Shown in pieces: positions 45,760 to 53,898 of a DNA stretch of 64,000 nt. Both the position numbers and the translations under genes were made by a program. Numbering within the stretch: position 1 is the stretch's first letter; every line of letters begins with the position of its first letter. This DNA is from Bifidobacterium aquikefiri. GTDB taxonomy: Bacteria; Actinomycetota; Actinomycetes; Actinomycetales; Bifidobacteriaceae. The stretch is taken from positions 62,001 to 126,000 of the forward strand of contig NZ_MWXA01000004.1 in NCBI RefSeq assembly GCF_002259795.1, read 5' to 3'. The notes beneath the pieces were generated by a model. The model was not told where the DNA came from and did not search any database. It was given only the letters and a program-made list of their open reading frames with translations.

Positions 45760-47124
45760 TTACATGCATGTCAGAATCGACCACGCGACGCTGGCGGGGA
45801 AACGACCGGCATCATAGCGCAGCTGCCTGGCCGCAGCCGAGCCGCCACGCTCCGCCGCGATGCCGTCCTCACGTTCTTTGAGCGCAGGAGCCACGGAAAC
45901 CGACGGCGTCAGCAGCGGAATCAGCGTGCACTGAAGTGCGTGGTACAGATCGGACTTGCCCGGCCAAACCGTTGCAATAACCCTGTTATCGCAATCAAGC
46001 TGATGAAACCACGAACCATGATCATGGTCAATCAGATATTCATCGATATACGCCCAGAAGCGGCTGTACCACTGCGCATACTCCTGTTTCTGCGTGACGG
46101 CAAACAGTGTCGCTGAAGTATTCACCGCCTCAGCCAAGGTCCAGTGCATGCGATCGGTAACAACCGGCTTTCCAGCCCAGTCGGTCGTGTACGCCAGGCC
46201 ATCCCGACCACCTGGAGTGGTGGCCCAGCCATCCTCGACCGCGCGCCTGAACAGTGCCTCGGCAGCCTCGACCAGACGATCTCTCTCTGCCTTGTCAAGA
46301 CTGGAATCGCTCAACGCATACTGGGTGATGAGACGAGCCCATTCGATGCCATGACCAGGAGTTGCCCCATACGGCTTGAACTGATCGTCCTTCTTGTCTG
46401 CGTTGAACTCAAGATCCGGAACCCAGTCAGCGGTGAAATGCTCGGGAATACGCCATTCGTTACGCTCGGACCATCCAACGACGTGACGCACGATCCGACC
46501 TGCGCGCCTCCGCCAGGTCTCGTCCTCAAGCACGTCGGCCAAGGCAAGAAACGCCTCGGTCGTATGCATGTTCGCATTCACCCCGCGATAAGGATCAAGC
46601 TCCGTGAACTCTGTGTTCCACGTATCTACGGCAAGTCCTGCTTCATCATCCCAGAAATGCGTGAGGAATGTTGCCGTCGCCTCATCCAACAGTTCCCTCG
46701 CACCGGGACGACCGATCAAGGTGGCCGAAGCACTGGCCAGCATGACGAACGCATGCGTATAGCAAACCTTGCCCGGCTCGGGCGTACCGTCTTCGCTGAC
46801 GGACGGATACCAACCCCCATTCCTGTCATCATGAAGGATGCCTTTCAGCCCCCTGAGCGCCGCGTCAACAAGCTCCGTCGAACCCTCGTGCCCTGCTATT
46901 GCTCCCAGCGAGTACACATGAGTCATACGACACGTTATCCAGGTCTGAATCCCCTCGCTGGGATCAGGCTCGCCCACATCATCCAGCCAATACGAACCAC
47001 CCTGCGGCGCAGGGAAACGATGGCCGAACCCAAGAAGGTCATCACGAACCTTCCCCAGAAACTCACGATTCTCATCAGTACCCAGAACATAGGCACCAGC
47101 ATTGGCCTGCTTACTCAACGACAT
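45760..47124 (-). CDS. AGE family epimerase/isomerase (YihS/mannose isomerase-like)
   Basis: The 454-residue protein has the (alpha/alpha)6-barrel pattern of N-acylglucosamine 2-epimerases. Family residues are seen in MTHVYSLG, NANMHTTEAFLALAD, PGHGIEWARLI, RMHWTLAEAVN and SDLYHALQCTLIPLL. The last four resemble YihS-type aldose-ketose isomerases more than cellobiose 2-epimerases. The likely reaction is interconversion of mannose and fructose (or another 2-epimer pair), but the substrate is not fixed by sequence. I chose the ATG at 47124 with GGGAG six bases upstream. It is divergent from lacI and the GH130 operon, which suggests a shared sugar pathway. A possible operator-like sequence, caaaaccgtttca, lies near 47154-47166 in its 5' region. 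Confidence 0.85.
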   Translation of the reverse strand: MSLSKQANAGAYVLGTDENREFLGKVRDDLLGFGHRFPAPQGGSYWLDDVGEPDPSEGIQTWITCRMTHVYSLGAIAGHEGSTELVDAALRGLKGILHDDRNGGWYPSVSEDGTPEPGKVCYTHAFVMLASASATLIGRPGARELLDEATATFLTHFWDDEAGLAVDTWNTEFTELDPYRGVNANMHTTEAFLALADVLEDETWRRRAGRIVRHVVGWSERNEWRIPEHFTADWVPDLEFNADKKDDQFKPYGATPGHGIEWARLITQYALSDSSLDKAERDRLVEAAEALFRRAVEDGWATTPGGRDGLAYTTDWAGKPVVTDRMHWTLAEAVNTSATLFAVTQKQEYAQWYSRFWAYIDEYLIDHDHGSWFHQLDCDNRVIATVWPGKSDLYHALQCTLIPLLTPSVSVAPALKEREDGIAAERGGSAAARQLRYDAGRFPASVAWSILTCM

Positions 47125-47326
47125 TGTTGCTCCCTTCAATACACCAACAGCTGCAAAACCGTTTCATTCGATTGCAGTTGCCAACCAACTTTCTGCAGAC
47201 CACACACGAGACTTTGAAAAATCACCGTATGGTCTCACCTGACATCATTATCGAGGTTCGGTGTCACGAACGTACGTGGTGGAAAACAGCCTACAACATG
47301 CTGGAAAACAAAGACAGTGGAGTGTC

Positions 47327-47342
47327 GTCAAAGCGGTTTGAC
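47327..47342. promoter_or_regulatory. LacI-type operator 1
   Basis: The sequence gtcaaagcggtttgac is a near-perfect palindrome with a central CG, the form bound by LacI-family repressors. An identical 16-mer starts 25 bp downstream. It sits in the 315-bp divergent region between the AGE-family gene and lacI, which holds no other gene. Confidence 0.75.
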
Positions 47343-47351
47343 ACGCCGATC

Positions 47352-47367
47352 GTCAAAGCGGTTTGAC
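47352..47367. promoter_or_regulatory. LacI-type operator 2
   Basis: It is an exact second copy of gtcaaagcggtttgac. It overlaps the -35 element of the candidate lacI promoter, so binding should block that promoter. Confidence 0.78.
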
Positions 47368-47389: not shown

Positions 47390-47439
47390 TTTGACTCAAA
47401 GCTTGGGAATTAAAAGATGCCCCAATGGAGGGGATTGGA

Positions 47440-48441
47440 ATGGATAAACCTACGATCGCGGACGTTGCACGCTTGGCAGGAGTGACCAAGGGGACAGTGT
47501 CGCATGTTTATAACGGTCACCGACCGATTTCCGCCGCAACTAAGAAGAAGGTCATTTCTGCCGCACTCTCCTTGGATTGGTCGCCCAACTACAATGCACA
47601 GGCCCTGGCCGTGCAGCGCGCGAACGCAGTGGGCATCGTACTGGCCCGCGATCCAAGTGTCCTGGCATCAGACACATTCTTCCCAATCTTCCTTTCCGGC
47701 GTCGAGACAGTGCTTGCCAAGCATGGAGTTGCATTGGTTCTACAGGTTGTAAATGGGCACGAAATGGAATGCGAGGCATATCGCACCATGGCGCAGGGAA
47801 GGGTCGATGGCGTCATAGTGCTTGACCTGAGCCGCAACGATTACCGTATACCACTCTTGAAGAAGTTGCAGCTCAACGCCGTCCTAGCCGATTCTTGCAA
47901 CAGCTCAAAAGACAGAGGATTCTCCAATGTTTGGGTTGATGATAGAGCACCGATAAAGATACTCATCAGTCATCTTCTCGAGCTTGGACACAGGCGCATA
48001 GCGCATGTCTCCGGCCCGATGCAATACGTTCATTCGTATGAAAGAGCGCAATGCTATATCGAAACCATGGGCAGCGGTGAACTCCTCCGAACAGGGGATT
48101 TCACCGCGAACTCCGGGGTGGAATGCACCAAGGATCTGTTGTCGTCGTCGAATCCGCCAACGGCGATCATCTATTCCAACGATGTCATGGCTACGGCAGG
48201 ACTCTCCTACGCGCAGAGCCAGGGATTCAAGATACCCGAGGATCTTGCCGTTGCAGGCTTCGATGATGACCCCATCTCGGAGCATCTCAATCCACCACTG
48301 ACCAGCGTATACACCAATGCTTTCAAACGCGGGCAGATCACCGCAGACCGTCTTCTTGCAGAGATCAATGGGGCTCTGCCCGAGTCGGTTGAAACAGAAC
48401 CGTCGCGCATCAGATTCCGAGCCAGTACAGGAGATAGATAG
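47440..48441 (+). CDS. LacI family transcriptional regulator
   Basis: The 333-residue repressor has the LacI helix-turn-helix and hinge (KPTIADVARLAGVTKGTVSHVYNGHRPISAATKKKV) and a periplasmic-binding-protein-like sensor domain (NAVGIVLARDPS, HLLELGHRRIAHVSGP, AIIYSNDVMATAGL, VAGFDDDPISEHLNPPLTSV). It probably binds the two operators just upstream and responds to a sugar handled by the adjacent importer and GH130 enzyme. GGAGG lies eight bases before the ATG at 47440; this start is preferred to the one five codons upstream. The solute-binding protein gene begins 62 bp downstream in the same direction, so they should share a transcript. Confidence 0.95.
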   Translation: MDKPTIADVARLAGVTKGTVSHVYNGHRPISAATKKKVISAALSLDWSPNYNAQALAVQRANAVGIVLARDPSVLASDTFFPIFLSGVETVLAKHGVALVLQVVNGHEMECEAYRTMAQGRVDGVIVLDLSRNDYRIPLLKKLQLNAVLADSCNSSKDRGFSNVWVDDRAPIKILISHLLELGHRRIAHVSGPMQYVHSYERAQCYIETMGSGELLRTGDFTANSGVECTKDLLSSSNPPTAIIYSNDVMATAGLSYAQSQGFKIPEDLAVAGFDDDPISEHLNPPLTSVYTNAFKRGQITADRLLAEINGALPESVETEPSRIRFRASTGDR

Positions 48442-48519
48442 ATTTGGCACCTCGCCAATTTCATATTGAAATCAAGTGAAGGGAACACTCAAGGAGGAGT
48501 GAAATGAGAAACAAATATA

Positions 48520-49849
48520 GGCCTTTCGCTGTTTGGTGTGGGTGGGGCTGGTTATATGGTGACGGTGGCTAGGTCGAGCTTGCCGCAGGTCAGGTAGATC
48601 ATCGTGGAGAAGTAGTCCATGTTGCGGAAGCCGCGGGCTCGGGTTTTGATGTGTTGGATGATGCTGTTCAATCCCTCGAGGATCGCGTTGGTGCACCGGT
48701 GGTCGAAATACGTGAGGATGTCCTGCCAGTGACGACGGATCCGGCGGGCGAGGGTTTTCATGGGTTCCAGACGGGAGTGCATCATCCACGAGCACAATGT
48801 CTGGAACCCGGCTTCGGCCTGCATCCGGCTCGTGCTGGTGGCGTAGATGTCCTGGAGGGTCTCGCGCATCTGGCAGGCGCGTCCGGTCTTGACCCGTTGT
48901 TCCTGCAGGTTATGCTTGGTCTCCAGCTGGAGCCCGGTCAGGCCCTCCTCGTTGCGCAGCCACAGGTATTTCGTGCGCCTGAGCAGGGGGTTGCGCCCGG
49001 CCTCCGTCTTGCGGACCTTGTCGACGGCCTCGTTGGCGTGCTTGATCACATGGAACTTGTCGATCACCTTGGCGGCGTTGGGCAGGTGTTCGCGGATGCC
49101 CTTGGCGAACCCCAGGCTCATGTCGCAGGTGACCAGTGTCACCCGGTTCGGGTCACCGTTGTGGTCCATGAAATCCAACGCGAACCGTTTGACGGTGTTC
49201 GCGTCCTTGCCGGGCACCACGCAGATCACGTTGCGCTCCGCCAGATCGGCGACCACGGTGATGTACCGGTGGCCTTTGCGGCTGGTCTCGTCGATGCCGA
49301 TCGCCTCCACGCCCGTGTAATCCTCGTACAGGCGGGCCTGGTCCACATAATGTCTGATGAACCGCCACAATCTCGTGTCATGTTCGCCGACCTGCTCGGC
49401 TATGTCCGCGACCGGCTGGCTTTTCGCCAGCTCCACGACCATCGCCTCGAACAACAGCGTGAACCCGCTGCCTGGACGGGCCCACGGCACCGGCACCGCA
49501 CGCACGCCGTGCTCGGGGCATGATACGCGCGGCACGCCCGCGTGGATGAACGCCTTGTACTGGAAGAAGTTCAAGTGCCGCCACACCCGGTTCCTGACAT
49601 CATGCATCGGGCACGCCTCCCGCCCGCACTCCGCATGTGGGCAAGAAAAACGCGAGCCGGGCTCGAATCCGATCGTGATGTGCAATTCGCGTCTGCCGCC
49701 CTCCCCGTCACGGAACTCCACACCCGAAACCCTCCAGGGATCAGGCAACTGCAAGGCGGCGGTGAACAACAACGTGGTATCCATACCCCCAAACTACCCG
49801 CCAGCCACCTCCACCCGACCAGCCCACCCACACCAAACAGCGAAAAGCC
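48520..49849. mobile_element. Complete ISL3-family insertion sequence, 1330 bp
   Basis: The ends are near-identical inverted repeats (left 48520-48551 starting ggcctttcgctgtttggtgt; right 49819-49849, whose complement starts ggcttttcgctgtttggtgt). The flanks carry an exact 8-bp duplication, caaatata, at 48512-48519 and 49850-49857. Eight bp is the usual target duplication of ISL3 elements. One intact transposase gene fills the element on the minus strand. The element appears richer in G+C than its flanks. The exact duplication and intact gene suggest a recent insertion. Confidence 0.95.
48552..49784 (-). CDS. ISL3 family transposase
   Basis: The 410-residue transposase has the N-terminal Cys/His zinc-binding region (SCPHAECGREACPMHD, VSCPEHG) and the ISL3 DDE catalytic domain. 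The acidic residues can be placed in EAIGIDETSRKGHRYITVV, VTCDMSLGFAKGI and NAILEGLNSIIQHIKTRARGF. All key residues are present and the frame is unbroken, so the element may be active. It reads against the interrupted host operon. Confidence 0.96.
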   Translation of the reverse strand: MDTTLLFTAALQLPDPWRVSGVEFRDGEGGRRELHITIGFEPGSRFSCPHAECGREACPMHDVRNRVWRHLNFFQYKAFIHAGVPRVSCPEHGVRAVPVPWARPGSGFTLLFEAMVVELAKSQPVADIAEQVGEHDTRLWRFIRHYVDQARLYEDYTGVEAIGIDETSRKGHRYITVVADLAERNVICVVPGKDANTVKRFALDFMDHNGDPNRVTLVTCDMSLGFAKGIREHLPNAAKVIDKFHVIKHANEAVDKVRKTEAGRNPLLRRTKYLWLRNEEGLTGLQLETKHNLQEQRVKTGRACQMRETLQDIYATSTSRMQAEAGFQTLCSWMMHSRLEPMKTLARRIRRHWQDILTYFDHRCTNAILEGLNSIIQHIKTRARGFRNMDYFSTMIYLTCGKLDLATVTI

Positions 49850-51131
49850 CAAATATATAACAACGAGCATTGCTATTGCCGCAGCTCTAGTCATGGCTTT
49901 GAGCGGTTGTGGGTCAGGCGGAAGCGCAAGCAGCGCCGACACAAAAGCACAGGGACCGATCAAGGTTTGGTTTTCCAACAATGAGCAGGAACTAGCCTGG
50001 GGAAAGACAGTGGTGGCGGCGTGGAACAGCAAACACCCCGATCAAAAGGTCACTGCCCAGGAAATCCCCTCCGCATCATCTTCGGAAGAGGCGATTACCG
50101 CGGCCATTACCGCAGGAACCAGCCCGTGCTTGGTCTACAACATTTCGAGTTCATCAGTACCTGGCTGGGTCCGGCAGGGAGGATTGGTCGATCTTTCCAA
50201 GATTAGTGACGGCAACAGCTATATCGAAACTCGCTCCGGCGATGCCTCGAACTCGTACAAAACCAATGGAGACTACTATCAGTTGCCCTGGAAGTCGAAT
50301 CCAGTCATGATCATCTACAACAAGGCCATTTTCAAAAAAGCAGGAATCAATCCGGAAAATCCAGGAATGAACACATACAAGGGATTCCTTGCAGCAGCGA
50401 AGAAGATCGTCTCCTCCGGAGCCTCGAAGAGTGCCATCTGGCCAGCTCCCACGAATGAGTTCTACCAGCCTTGGAACGATTTCTATCCGCTCTACCTCGC
50501 TGAGACGAGCGGCACTCCCTTGATCAAGGATGAGAAGGCCACGTTCGACAGCGAAGCGGGACGCGATGTCACACAGTTCTGGAAGTCAATCTATGAAGAT
50601 GGGCTCGCGCCTACTGAGAAAGCAGCTGACGATGCTATGGCACAGGGAACGACCGCCATGCAACTTGCCGGCCCATGGGCGATAGCTTCATATAAAGGCA
50701 AAGTGGATGTAGGTGTAATGCCTGTACCCACCTCGACAGGCAAGAAGAGCGTCTACACTTTTGCTGACTCGAAGAACATCTCAATGTTTACGTCGTGCAA
50801 GGCTCAAGGCACAGCATGGAACTTCCTCAAGTTCTCGACGAGCGAAGCTCAGGACGCCAAGTTCATCGAGGCAACTGGCCAGATTCCCATGAGGAAGAAC
50901 GCGACCAGCAATTATGCATCATTCGTCGCCAAGAATCCGTCCTATGCACCTTACGTGGATCAGTCAGCACGTACCGGTGACGTTCCGAGTATTACCAATG
51001 CCTCAGAGGTCTGGCAGAAGTTCCGCGATCTTTGGTCGGCCGACGTGATCTTCGGCAAAGGTTCCGCGAGTACATTCGTGAGCGATTCCGCTACTGCTGT
51101 CAACAGTCTCGTGAAAAAGGGCTGATGCCAT

Positions 51132-52043
51132 ATGCATGACAGCAATCTCCAGCGTCCCTGGTACAAGCGGATACGCTTGTTCGGGGACCAGCCGGTAGGA
51201 CTGATATTCTCAGCCCCCTACATTGTTTTCGTGCTTGCCATATTTGCATACCCATTCATTTTCGCAATCTACATGGCATTTCACGATTACTTCTTTACAG
51301 CACCGGGAGTGCAGGCGAACAAACCCTTCGTCGGCTTCAAAAACTTCCAGACCGTACTGACAGATCCTGATGTATTGCAGTCGTTCCGGAACATTCTTGT
51401 CTTTCTGATCATCAACGTTCCCCTGACAGTGGTACTGGCGTTGGTGTTGGCGACAGTGCTCAACAAAGGAATCAAGTGGGCTGCGGCATTCAGAATCGCC
51501 TTTTACCTTCCCTACATCACGGCGAGCGTGTCCTTGGTGGGCGTGTGGATGATCCTGTTCTCTCAGGATGGTCTCATCAACGCCTTCCTTGGGCGCTTCG
51601 CCCCTAACCCATCTTGGCTGGTGAATGAGCATCTGGCGATGCCGTCGATAGCACTGTATGTCACGTGGAAACAGCTTGGTTTCTATATCTTGCTCTACCT
51701 GGCGGCACTGCAGAACGTTCCCCAGGAATTGCACGAGGCGGCCGAGGTAGACGGAGCGAATTCCTTCCAGAGATTCATTCACGTCACGGTCCCAGGAGTG
51801 AGATCAACGACCACATTGGTCTTGATACTGGCAATCATCACGGGAGCAAACCTGTTCACAGAACCATACCTGCTGACCAACGGAGGCGGCCCTGATGGTG
51901 CATCAACTTCGCCGGTACTGCTCATCTACCAGTTTGGTATCCAACAGCAGAACCCGGATTTGGCATCCGCGATCGGCATGGTGCTGGTCATCCTTGTCGG
52001 ACTGCTCTCTCTGTTCGTTAACAGATTAAATAAGGAACGGTGA
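51132..52043 (+). CDS. Sugar ABC transporter permease (MalF-type)
   Basis: The 303-residue inner-membrane protein has about six membrane segments and the binding-protein-dependent transport EAA loop, here ELHEAAEVDGANSFQRFIHVTVPGVRSTT. Position and N-terminus (WYKRIRLFGDQPVGLIFSAPYIVF) are typical of the first permease of family CUT1 importers. It starts 6 bp after the solute-binding protein stop and runs into the second permease gene. Its expression may be reduced by the upstream IS insertion. As is common in bifidobacteria, no ATPase gene is present in the cluster; a shared MsmK-like ATPase elsewhere may energise it. Confidence 0.95.
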   Translation: MHDSNLQRPWYKRIRLFGDQPVGLIFSAPYIVFVLAIFAYPFIFAIYMAFHDYFFTAPGVQANKPFVGFKNFQTVLTDPDVLQSFRNILVFLIINVPLTVVLALVLATVLNKGIKWAAAFRIAFYLPYITASVSLVGVWMILFSQDGLINAFLGRFAPNPSWLVNEHLAMPSIALYVTWKQLGFYILLYLAALQNVPQELHEAAEVDGANSFQRFIHVTVPGVRSTTTLVLILAIITGANLFTEPYLLTNGGGPDGASTSPVLLIYQFGIQQQNPDLASAIGMVLVILVGLLSLFVNRLNKER

Positions 52044-52045
52044 TC

Positions 52046-52885
52046 ATGCATCACACATCTAAGATAAGGGTGGCGTTACGCCACGTTGTAGTGATCTTGG
52101 CGGCCCTTATATTCGTTTTCCCCTTCTACTTCATGATAATCGGAGCCTTCCAGCAGAATCCGACGAACACTCCGGACAGACTGTTCCCGATGTCGGGCTG
52201 GACCTTGAATAACTTCATCGCTATCAACTCGCGCATCAGCCTGTTGGGATCGTTGTTCAACTCGCTCGTCTTCGTTGTCGGGGTACTGCTGGGAACGGTG
52301 ACATTCGGTCTACTTACAGGATACGCGGTTTCCTGCCTCAAATTCAGAGGGAAAGGCTTCGTCTGGATATTAATGATGCTCGTACAGATGATCCCTTTCC
52401 AGCTGCTCATGATTCCGCTGTATGTGCAGATCGCTCGGAACTACGGTCTTGGTGATACCTATATCGGAATTATTCTGCCCTTCGCCATCAATACCACGGC
52501 CGTATTCATCTTCGCCCAATTCTTCAAGGCTCTGCCGCCATCGATTTTCGAGGCTGCAAGGATAGACGGGGCCGGGGAGCTGCGGATACTATGGTCAATC
52601 GCCATCCCCATGGTGAGACCGGCCTTGGTAACGGCTGTACTGGTGACGTTCATCGGCCCGTGGAATGAGTTCCTGTGGCCTTTCCTCATCACCAAAAACA
52701 CGAGCATGCAGCCATTGGCTGTCTCCTTGGCGAACTTCATATCATCGGTATCGCAGTCGATGGCGAATCCCAATGGGGCAATCCTTGCCGGTGCGACCGT
52801 TCTCGCTTTCCCGGTGGTCGTTATCTTCTGTGTGTTCCAAAAATATTTCACTGCATCTGACATCGGATCAGCTACGAAAGGATGA
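52046..52885 (+). CDS. Sugar ABC transporter permease (MalG-type)
   Basis: The 279-residue protein has about six membrane segments and the EAA loop SIFEAARIDGAGELRILWSIAIPMVRPAL, typical of the second CUT1 permease. The start is taken at the ATG 52046, with AAGGAA eight bases upstream; the GTG at 52040 overlaps the preceding stop but has too little RBS spacing. It forms the membrane channel with the preceding permease. The stop overlaps the first possible GH130 start (ATGA). Confidence 0.95.
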   Translation: MHHTSKIRVALRHVVVILAALIFVFPFYFMIIGAFQQNPTNTPDRLFPMSGWTLNNFIAINSRISLLGSLFNSLVFVVGVLLGTVTFGLLTGYAVSCLKFRGKGFVWILMMLVQMIPFQLLMIPLYVQIARNYGLGDTYIGIILPFAINTTAVFIFAQFFKALPPSIFEAARIDGAGELRILWSIAIPMVRPALVTAVLVTFIGPWNEFLWPFLITKNTSMQPLAVSLANFISSVSQSMANPNGAILAGATVLAFPVVVIFCVFQKYFTASDIGSATKG

Positions 52886-53898
52886 AAATCATCATGACCG
52901 GAACGAGTTTCTTCACCGGCGCAACATTCCCTCTGGGACCGTTCACCCCATATGAGCATAATCCAGTGCTCAAACCTTTGGGTGGATCGTGGGAATCGTC
53001 GAACCTGTATAATCCCGCTGCCCTTGTGGATGGCGATGAAGTGGTCCTTCTGTACAGGGCCCACGCAGAAGACATCGTCTCACACATCGGGCTGGCAAGA
53101 AGCAGAGACGGATACCACTTCGAACGGGAATCCGAGCCAATCTTGTCACCCACGGAAGATTACGAACGCTACGGCTGCGAAGACCCACGGATCACCGCGA
53201 TCGACGGGACGTACTATCTGACCTACACAGGTTGGGACAGACACAATGCGAGACTTTGCCTAGCAACCTCAACGGATCTACATCACTGGGAAAAGCATGG
53301 CCCTTTGTTCAAAGGTTTCGACACATTTGCCGCGACCAACACACCCCATGGGGGCGACTGGTCAAAGGCCGGCGTGATCCTGCCTTACCAGCTCAAGGAC
53401 AAGTGGTGGATGTATTTCGGCGAGGGATCCATTTATTGGGCCACAAGTGACGATCTAATTCATTGGACGCCCGGAATCCCCGACACTGATCCGCTGTACC
53501 GCTCCACCCCAGGCTCCTTCGACGCAGATCTTGTTGAGATCGGCGCCCCGCCGGTGCTCACCGAGAATGGTCTACTGGTATTCGTCATGAATGGAGCCAC
53601 GCGTACCATCCGCGCAGATGGTGAAGTCGATGTAGATTACCGATGCGGGCAATTCGCCATTGATCCCGACGAGCCAGATCGCGTGATTGCACGTATGAAT
53701 ACTCCGTGGCTCAAGCCACAGACCTTCGAGGATCTCAATGGCCTTGTCCCGAACGTCACCTTCGTGGAGGGATTAGTGTTGTTCAAGGGCAAATGGTTTG
53801 CATATTATGGCCAGTCTGATACCACGCTCGCAGTTGCCGTGCACGATCCGAAACAGACATGGGGCGGCAAATTGATGCAGGCAGCCGCTTCACTATGA
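52882..53898 (+). CDS. GH130 family beta-mannoside phosphorylase/hydrolase-like enzyme
   Basis: The 338-residue five-bladed beta-propeller protein shows NLYNPAALVDGDEVVLLYRAHAED, the signature GCEDPRITAIDGTYYLTYTGWD, KDKWWMYFGEGSIYWATSDDL and VEGLVLFKGKWFAYYGQSDTTLAVAV, as in GH130. Known GH130 members split beta-mannosides, most of them by phosphorolysis to mannose-1-phosphate. The subfamily, and so phosphorylase or hydrolase, is not settled here. There is no signal peptide, so it acts in the cytoplasm on imported oligosaccharide. The ATG at 52882 overlaps the permease stop but has AAAGG directly adjacent; the ATG at 52894 has better spacing. It is the last gene of the operon. Confidence 0.88.
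   Translation: MKIIMTGTSFFTGATFPLGPFTPYEHNPVLKPLGGSWESSNLYNPAALVDGDEVVLLYRAHAEDIVSHIGLARSRDGYHFERESEPILSPTEDYERYGCEDPRITAIDGTYYLTYTGWDRHNARLCLATSTDLHHWEKHGPLFKGFDTFAATNTPHGGDWSKAGVILPYQLKDKWWMYFGEGSIYWATSDDLIHWTPGIPDTDPLYRSTPGSFDADLVEIGAPPVLTENGLLVFVMNGATRTIRADGEVDVDYRCGQFAIDPDEPDRVIARMNTPWLKPQTFEDLNGLVPNVTFVEGLVLFKGKWFAYYGQSDTTLAVAVHDPKQTWGGKLMQAAASL

Follow-up and report, generated by a model that had tools for sequence, protein, structure and literature searches.

Background

Insertion sequences of the ISL3 family have been described as carrying inverted repeats of about 25-27 bp and as generating an 8-bp, AT-rich target duplication (PMC5559704). Where such an element had silenced vanHAX, it has been reported that selection led to its loss in 30 of 31 isolates of one series and in three of four of another (PMC4914660). 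With regard to GH130 enzymes, BACOVA_03624 (3qc2) and BT3780 (5a7v) have been shown to be beta-1,2-mannosidases; in the same work GH130 hydrolases were described as secreted and phosphorylases as cytoplasmic, and the beta-1,2-mannoside linkage was noted to cap Candida mannan (PMC4599007). Bifidobacterium aquikefiri LMG 28769, which was obtained from household water kefir (PMC5540593), has been reported to form acid from mannose (PMC11500810).

These two lines of work meet in a stretch of 64,000 nucleotides from B. aquikefiri, referred to as the window, in which a complete ISL3-family element interrupts the solute-binding protein gene of an ABC importer operon that also encodes a GH130 enzyme.

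A complete ISL3-family element in a binding-protein gene

The element occupies positions 48520-49849 with its transposase on the reverse strand, and was recognized from its ends, its target duplication and the transposase profile; the 1330 bp assigned to it by the original prediction proved right to the base. Its left (48520-48546, forward) and right (49823-49849, reverse) terminal inverted repeats match each other at 26 of their first 27 bases, and the copies of CAAATATA on either side (48512-48519 and 49850-49857) are identical at 8 of 8 bases, this duplication being AT-rich, as is expected of the ISL3 family. The transposase gene (48552-49784, reverse strand) is full-length at 410 amino acids, and its product spans the Pfam profile PF01610 (DDE_Tnp_ISL3) from 1 to 240 of 240 positions and scores 325 bits against an NCBIfam ISL3 cut-off of 180. 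Near-perfect ends, an intact transposase and an exact 8-bp duplication had all been anticipated and are borne out by these values.

The interrupted gene begins with an ATG at 48504-48506 and was cut, as had been proposed, after its 16th base, the element following directly from 48520. Its first 16 bases (48504-48519, forward strand) now open a frame that stops inside the element after 22 codons, such that the original start encodes a 22-residue peptide only, and the headless rest of the gene (49857-51125, forward strand) remains open over 422 codons and matches the SBP_bac_8 and SBP_bac_1 families. When the flanks are fused at one copy of CAAATATA they read MRNKYITTSIAIAAALVMALSGC, which, judged by eye, is a lipoprotein start and agrees with the earlier claim that joining the flanks would restore one. 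The data support a simple transposition in which the ISL3 element landed among the codons for the signal peptide of the binding protein, and disruption of this gene, taken alone, can be regarded as very likely.

It had further been suggested that the locus could switch within a population, precise excision being frequent enough to maintain a mixture of importer-on and importer-off cells. The exact duplication and the intact transposase are compatible with such behaviour, as are the circular forms reported for ISL3 elements (PMC3812183, PMC5559704), but any simple insertion leaves an exact duplication, which does not by itself demonstrate excision. In a collection with a single genome for each species, no empty site was met with. 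By analogy with the silenced vanHAX operon, switching by excision is possible at this locus; a standing mixed population is, however, unlikely.

The GH130 operon and its probable substrate

The remaining genes of the operon, identified as open reading frames with profile matches, encode a LacI-family regulator (47425-48441), permeases A (51132-52043) and B (52040-52885) of the ABC importer and the GH130 enzyme (52882-53898), all on the forward strand and all with open frames, in accordance with the original view that permeases, enzyme and regulator are intact. The binding protein and two permeases are arranged in one operon, as in a CUT1-type ABC sugar importer. No ATPase subunit gene was found among the genes scanned beside the window operon; importers of this type can draw on a shared ATPase encoded elsewhere.

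Profiles and structure matches place the GH130 enzyme closest to beta-1,2-mannosidases. It scores 183 bits with PF04041 (cut-off 26), and its closest solved structures are 3qc2 (E 2.6e-61) and 5a7v; two beta-1,2-mannoside phosphorylases, 9fj8 (1.1e-36) and 7fip (2.7e-34), match less strongly. NCBIfam models for beta-1,2-mannosidase (232 bits, cut-off 550) and beta-1,2-mannobiose phosphorylase (169 bits, cut-off 450) both matched below their cut-offs. Ten of the 12 named active-site residues of BT3780 align alike, including the candidate base glutamates Glu227 and Glu268, which correspond to E181 and E219 and are invariant in all nine relatives. Lys199, which is associated with beta-1,2 specificity in BT3780, aligns provisionally to P155, an invariant K162 lying 7 residues further on, and Tyr338 is not aligned to the same residue. 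By eye, no signal peptide is present in the N-terminus MKIIMTGTSFFTGATFPLG, and for this reason the enzyme is classed only as working like a beta-1,2-mannosidase.

Divergent from the operon lies a mannose-isomerase-like gene of the AGE superfamily (45760-47139, reverse strand), assigned from profiles and structure matches; a search of the genome found no PF07221 protein other than its product. This product reaches 401 bits against an NCBIfam cut-off of 600, and sulfoquinovose isomerases are among the solved structures nearest to it. In another genome (G151, locus L075, 6147-8404), the gene for a 66%-identical homologue of this isomerase and a GH130 gene lie 62 bases apart on one strand, a neighbourhood that links the functions of the two enzymes. 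A hydrolase would release free mannose, which a mannose-isomerase-like enzyme could use. Because the GH130 enzyme most resembles beta-1,2-mannosidases and a mannose-isomerase-like gene lies alongside, a beta-1,2-mannoside is the probable substrate; homology makes the beta-1,2 linkage quite likely, and favours hydrolysis as the mode of action with less assurance. The missing signal peptide counts against a hydrolase, known hydrolases being described as secreted (PMC4599007).

The beta-mannooligosaccharides (beta-1,4) named in the original prediction therefore do not appear to be the substrate. That the operon serves beta-1,4-mannooligosaccharides by means of a GH130 phosphorylase would fit the Pfam name of PF04041 (beta-1,4-mannooligosaccharide phosphorylase) and the missing signal peptide, a feature of known phosphorylases (PMC4599007); however, this Pfam name also covers beta-1,2-mannosidases (PMC8950772), and the beta-1,4 enzyme TM1225 (1vkd, E 4e-13) is a far weaker match than 3qc2 and is surpassed by both beta-1,2-mannoside phosphorylases as well, which renders this alternative improbable.

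The same genome harbours a second complete and intact operon with the order LacI, binding protein, permease, permease and GH130 (contig C11, locus L074, 5385-10837). Its GH130 enzyme is 77-78% identical to that of the window, and the two binding proteins share 22% identity, such that the sugars taken up by the two importers may differ. Within the family, GH130 homologues of at least 76% identity occur in six of 189 genomes (20 at a threshold of E 0.001; short fragments in G180). Among these six, the importer is of the window type in G133, G175 and G181 and of the C11 type in G015 and G151, and the B. aquikefiri genome has both.

Fate of the binding protein and expression of the operon

Eleven related loci from 10 distinct genomes (L006 and L076 lie on the same contig) were compared, namely L004 from Tessaracoccus, L005 from Arachnia, L006/L076 from a Bifidobacterium metagenome-assembled genome, L008-L012, L077 and L078. 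The binding-protein match runs without a break in all 11, with permease A after it, and a lipoprotein-like signal was seen by eye at the start in each of the nine loci read for it (all but L011 and L012). A LacI gene precedes the binding-protein gene in nine of the 11 loci, L004 and L005 giving no match, and GH130 lies downstream in all six loci whose stretch extends that far, the stretches of L008-L012 ending earlier.

Translation might still begin inside the element and yield the binding protein of the window importer in a fused or truncated lipoprotein form. The frame is indeed open from GTG 49542 to 51125 (527 amino acids), and of 148 columns that are otherwise invariant the headless protein deviates in 9, the second highest value of nine and yet within the range of the orthologues (0-10 of 139-149). 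Nevertheless, no ribosome site was recognized by eye before the in-frame ATG, GTG and TTG codons that follow the last in-frame stop of the element, and no promoter-like site was found at its right end (the scan of the region returned three sites against 2.8 expected, with a scanner that does not permit a 15-base spacing). In addition, initiation at the last in-frame start before the old signal peptide would place dozens of extra residues ahead of it, and ATG 49893 falls within that peptide, near the lipobox. Expression of such a lipoprotein is accordingly quite improbable. The two missing signals, for translation and for transcription, make loss of the binding protein likely, and the strain most likely has no working binding protein for the window importer, as judged from the sequence. 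Of the claim that uptake was lost or altered, the part concerning this binding protein is likely to hold, but uptake as such need not be lost given the intact second operon.

Expression of the downstream genes may also be affected. A pattern search revealed two identical near-palindromes GTCAAAGCGGTTTGAC (47327-47342 and 47352-47367), 25 bases apart and upstream of lacI, the second of which overlaps a TTGACT-15-TATAAT arrangement. In 100 shuffles of the window a pair of pattern matches never arose, the pattern having been chosen after the sites were seen, and a search of the genome allowing up to two mismatches returned only these two places for GTCAAAGCGGTTTGAC, a reversed control pattern likewise giving two matches. 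No match to the palindrome was present in the gaps between LacI and binding-protein genes of three relatives. The paired near-palindromes are probable LacI operators. Since these operators and a probable promoter are both situated upstream of lacI and hence ahead of the element, the genes beyond it may lack transcript, and polarity of this kind may leave the permeases and the GH130 gene poorly transcribed.

Distribution and age of the element

Among 26 other genomes of the genus, three carry full-length copies of the element (four in total, 98.6-99.0% identical, two of them in congener G018), two have a 38-base match only and 21 have none, and it is likely that the element has moved between related species. 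The closest full-length record in the plasmid collection, 83.2% identical, comes from a Bifidobacterium longum plasmid (NZ_CP084013). Carriage on a plasmid in congener G009 was considered and dropped, as the contig bears enolase and beta-galactosidase genes; no replication or transfer families were detected in the eight proteins of this contig that were scanned, taken from 30 open reading frames of at least 200 amino acids, many of them overlapping.

Several features of the congeneric copies were noted in passing. All four full copies (L057, L059, L060 and L061) are without a target duplication and some of their flanks are exchanged between copies, which suggests recombination between element copies in the congeners. 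Partial copies comprising element bases 1-295 (L060 1899-2193 and L058 28-322) share a common junction in two congeners, as might be expected had a different element landed in an ancestral copy. Between the transposase genes of the window and of the four full copies there are 31 variable coding sites, 30 of them with an effect on the amino acid; with the B. longum copy as outgroup, 29 of 30 changes alter an amino acid where 22.9 would be expected (P about 0.002, the copies not being independent), and in 16 of 17 A>G/T>C changes the A is followed, on the strand in question, by a G, a context shared by 23% of A/T sites. The window copy carries one derived change of the 30, being the least changed and nearest to the outgroup at these sites. 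Methylation-related mutation, base-calling error in the other copies or selection may account for this pattern.

The insertion had been called recent. No damage is seen in the transposase, the ends, the duplication or the headless frame, which fits this view, but no date can be attached to it: the column departures of the headless protein, being within the orthologue range given above, provide no signal of decay, and dating from differences between the inverted repeats was rejected, because the same end difference (GGCC versus GGCT) is present in all four other full copies and therefore belongs to the element. That the insertion is an assembly error, a suspicion to which a draft genome of 2,408,364 bases in 18 contigs is open, was rejected as scarcely credible, since the element is single-copy and located inside a contig, which makes repeat collapse an unlikely cause, its duplication is exact and the window copy differs by about 1% from every other copy compared.

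Conclusions and comparison with known systems

The gene of a solute-binding lipoprotein was invaded, within its first codons, by a complete ISL3-family element that duplicated 8 bp of target; what is left of the gene is a frame of 22 codons at the original start and a headless remainder. As a result, a working binding protein for the window importer is most likely absent, and 1.3 kb of oppositely oriented sequence would separate the probable operator-promoter from the permease and GH130 genes, from which poor transcription may follow. By homology, the operon would most likely bring beta-1,2-mannosides into the cell and support their cleavage in the cytoplasm, and the divergent isomerase is predicted to convert mannose to fructose. 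Tolerance of the insertion is probably owed to an intact parallel operon, which has its own, different binding protein and a similar GH130 enzyme and would compensate for the loss. Taken jointly, insertion, loss of the binding protein, polarity, a role in beta-1,2-mannoside use and tolerance through the second operon form an explanation that we consider reasonably likely.

The uncharacterised pathway around the insertion is of more interest than the insertion itself. That one genome has two parallel GH130 importer operons as well as a mannose isomerase suggests use of beta-1,2-mannosides by bifidobacteria, and it may tentatively be proposed, at somewhat less than even chances, that some bifidobacteria possess an undescribed intracellular hydrolytic pathway consisting of an ABC importer, a cytoplasmic GH130 beta-1,2-mannosidase and a mannose isomerase, with two alternative importers whose binding proteins are distantly related, this strain having both and one being disabled by a possibly reversible insertion. 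No bifidobacterial beta-1,2-mannoside pathway was recognized among the matches listed in the literature searched, a body outside which most subscription journals lie. The role of the window importer should not be judged from the B. aquikefiri strain with the insertion, which is in turn a natural mutant for telling apart the roles of the two importers.

Compared with described members of the ISL3 family (ISPst9, IS1411 and enterococcal ISL3-like elements), the window element has a transposase of the same family, similar inverted repeats and an 8-bp AT-rich duplication, and likewise inactivates a gene by insertion; it differs in its host and in the exact element. It is a new instance of a well-known kind, a real and ordinary insertional mutation. 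With the silenced vanHAX of vancomycin-variable enterococci it has in common that an ISL3 element in an operon blocks function, whereas excision under selection was seen in Enterococcus and the window insertion, read from a genome sequence, lies in coding sequence (PMC4914660). As for the enzyme, BT3780 and BACOVA_03624 are its closest solved structures and 10 of 12 active-site residues, both candidate base glutamates included, are the same; in contrast to these two proteins, the window GH130 is without a signal peptide, is encoded together with an ABC importer and belongs to another bacterial group, and Lys199 and Tyr338 of BT3780 have no counterpart of the same kind in the alignment.
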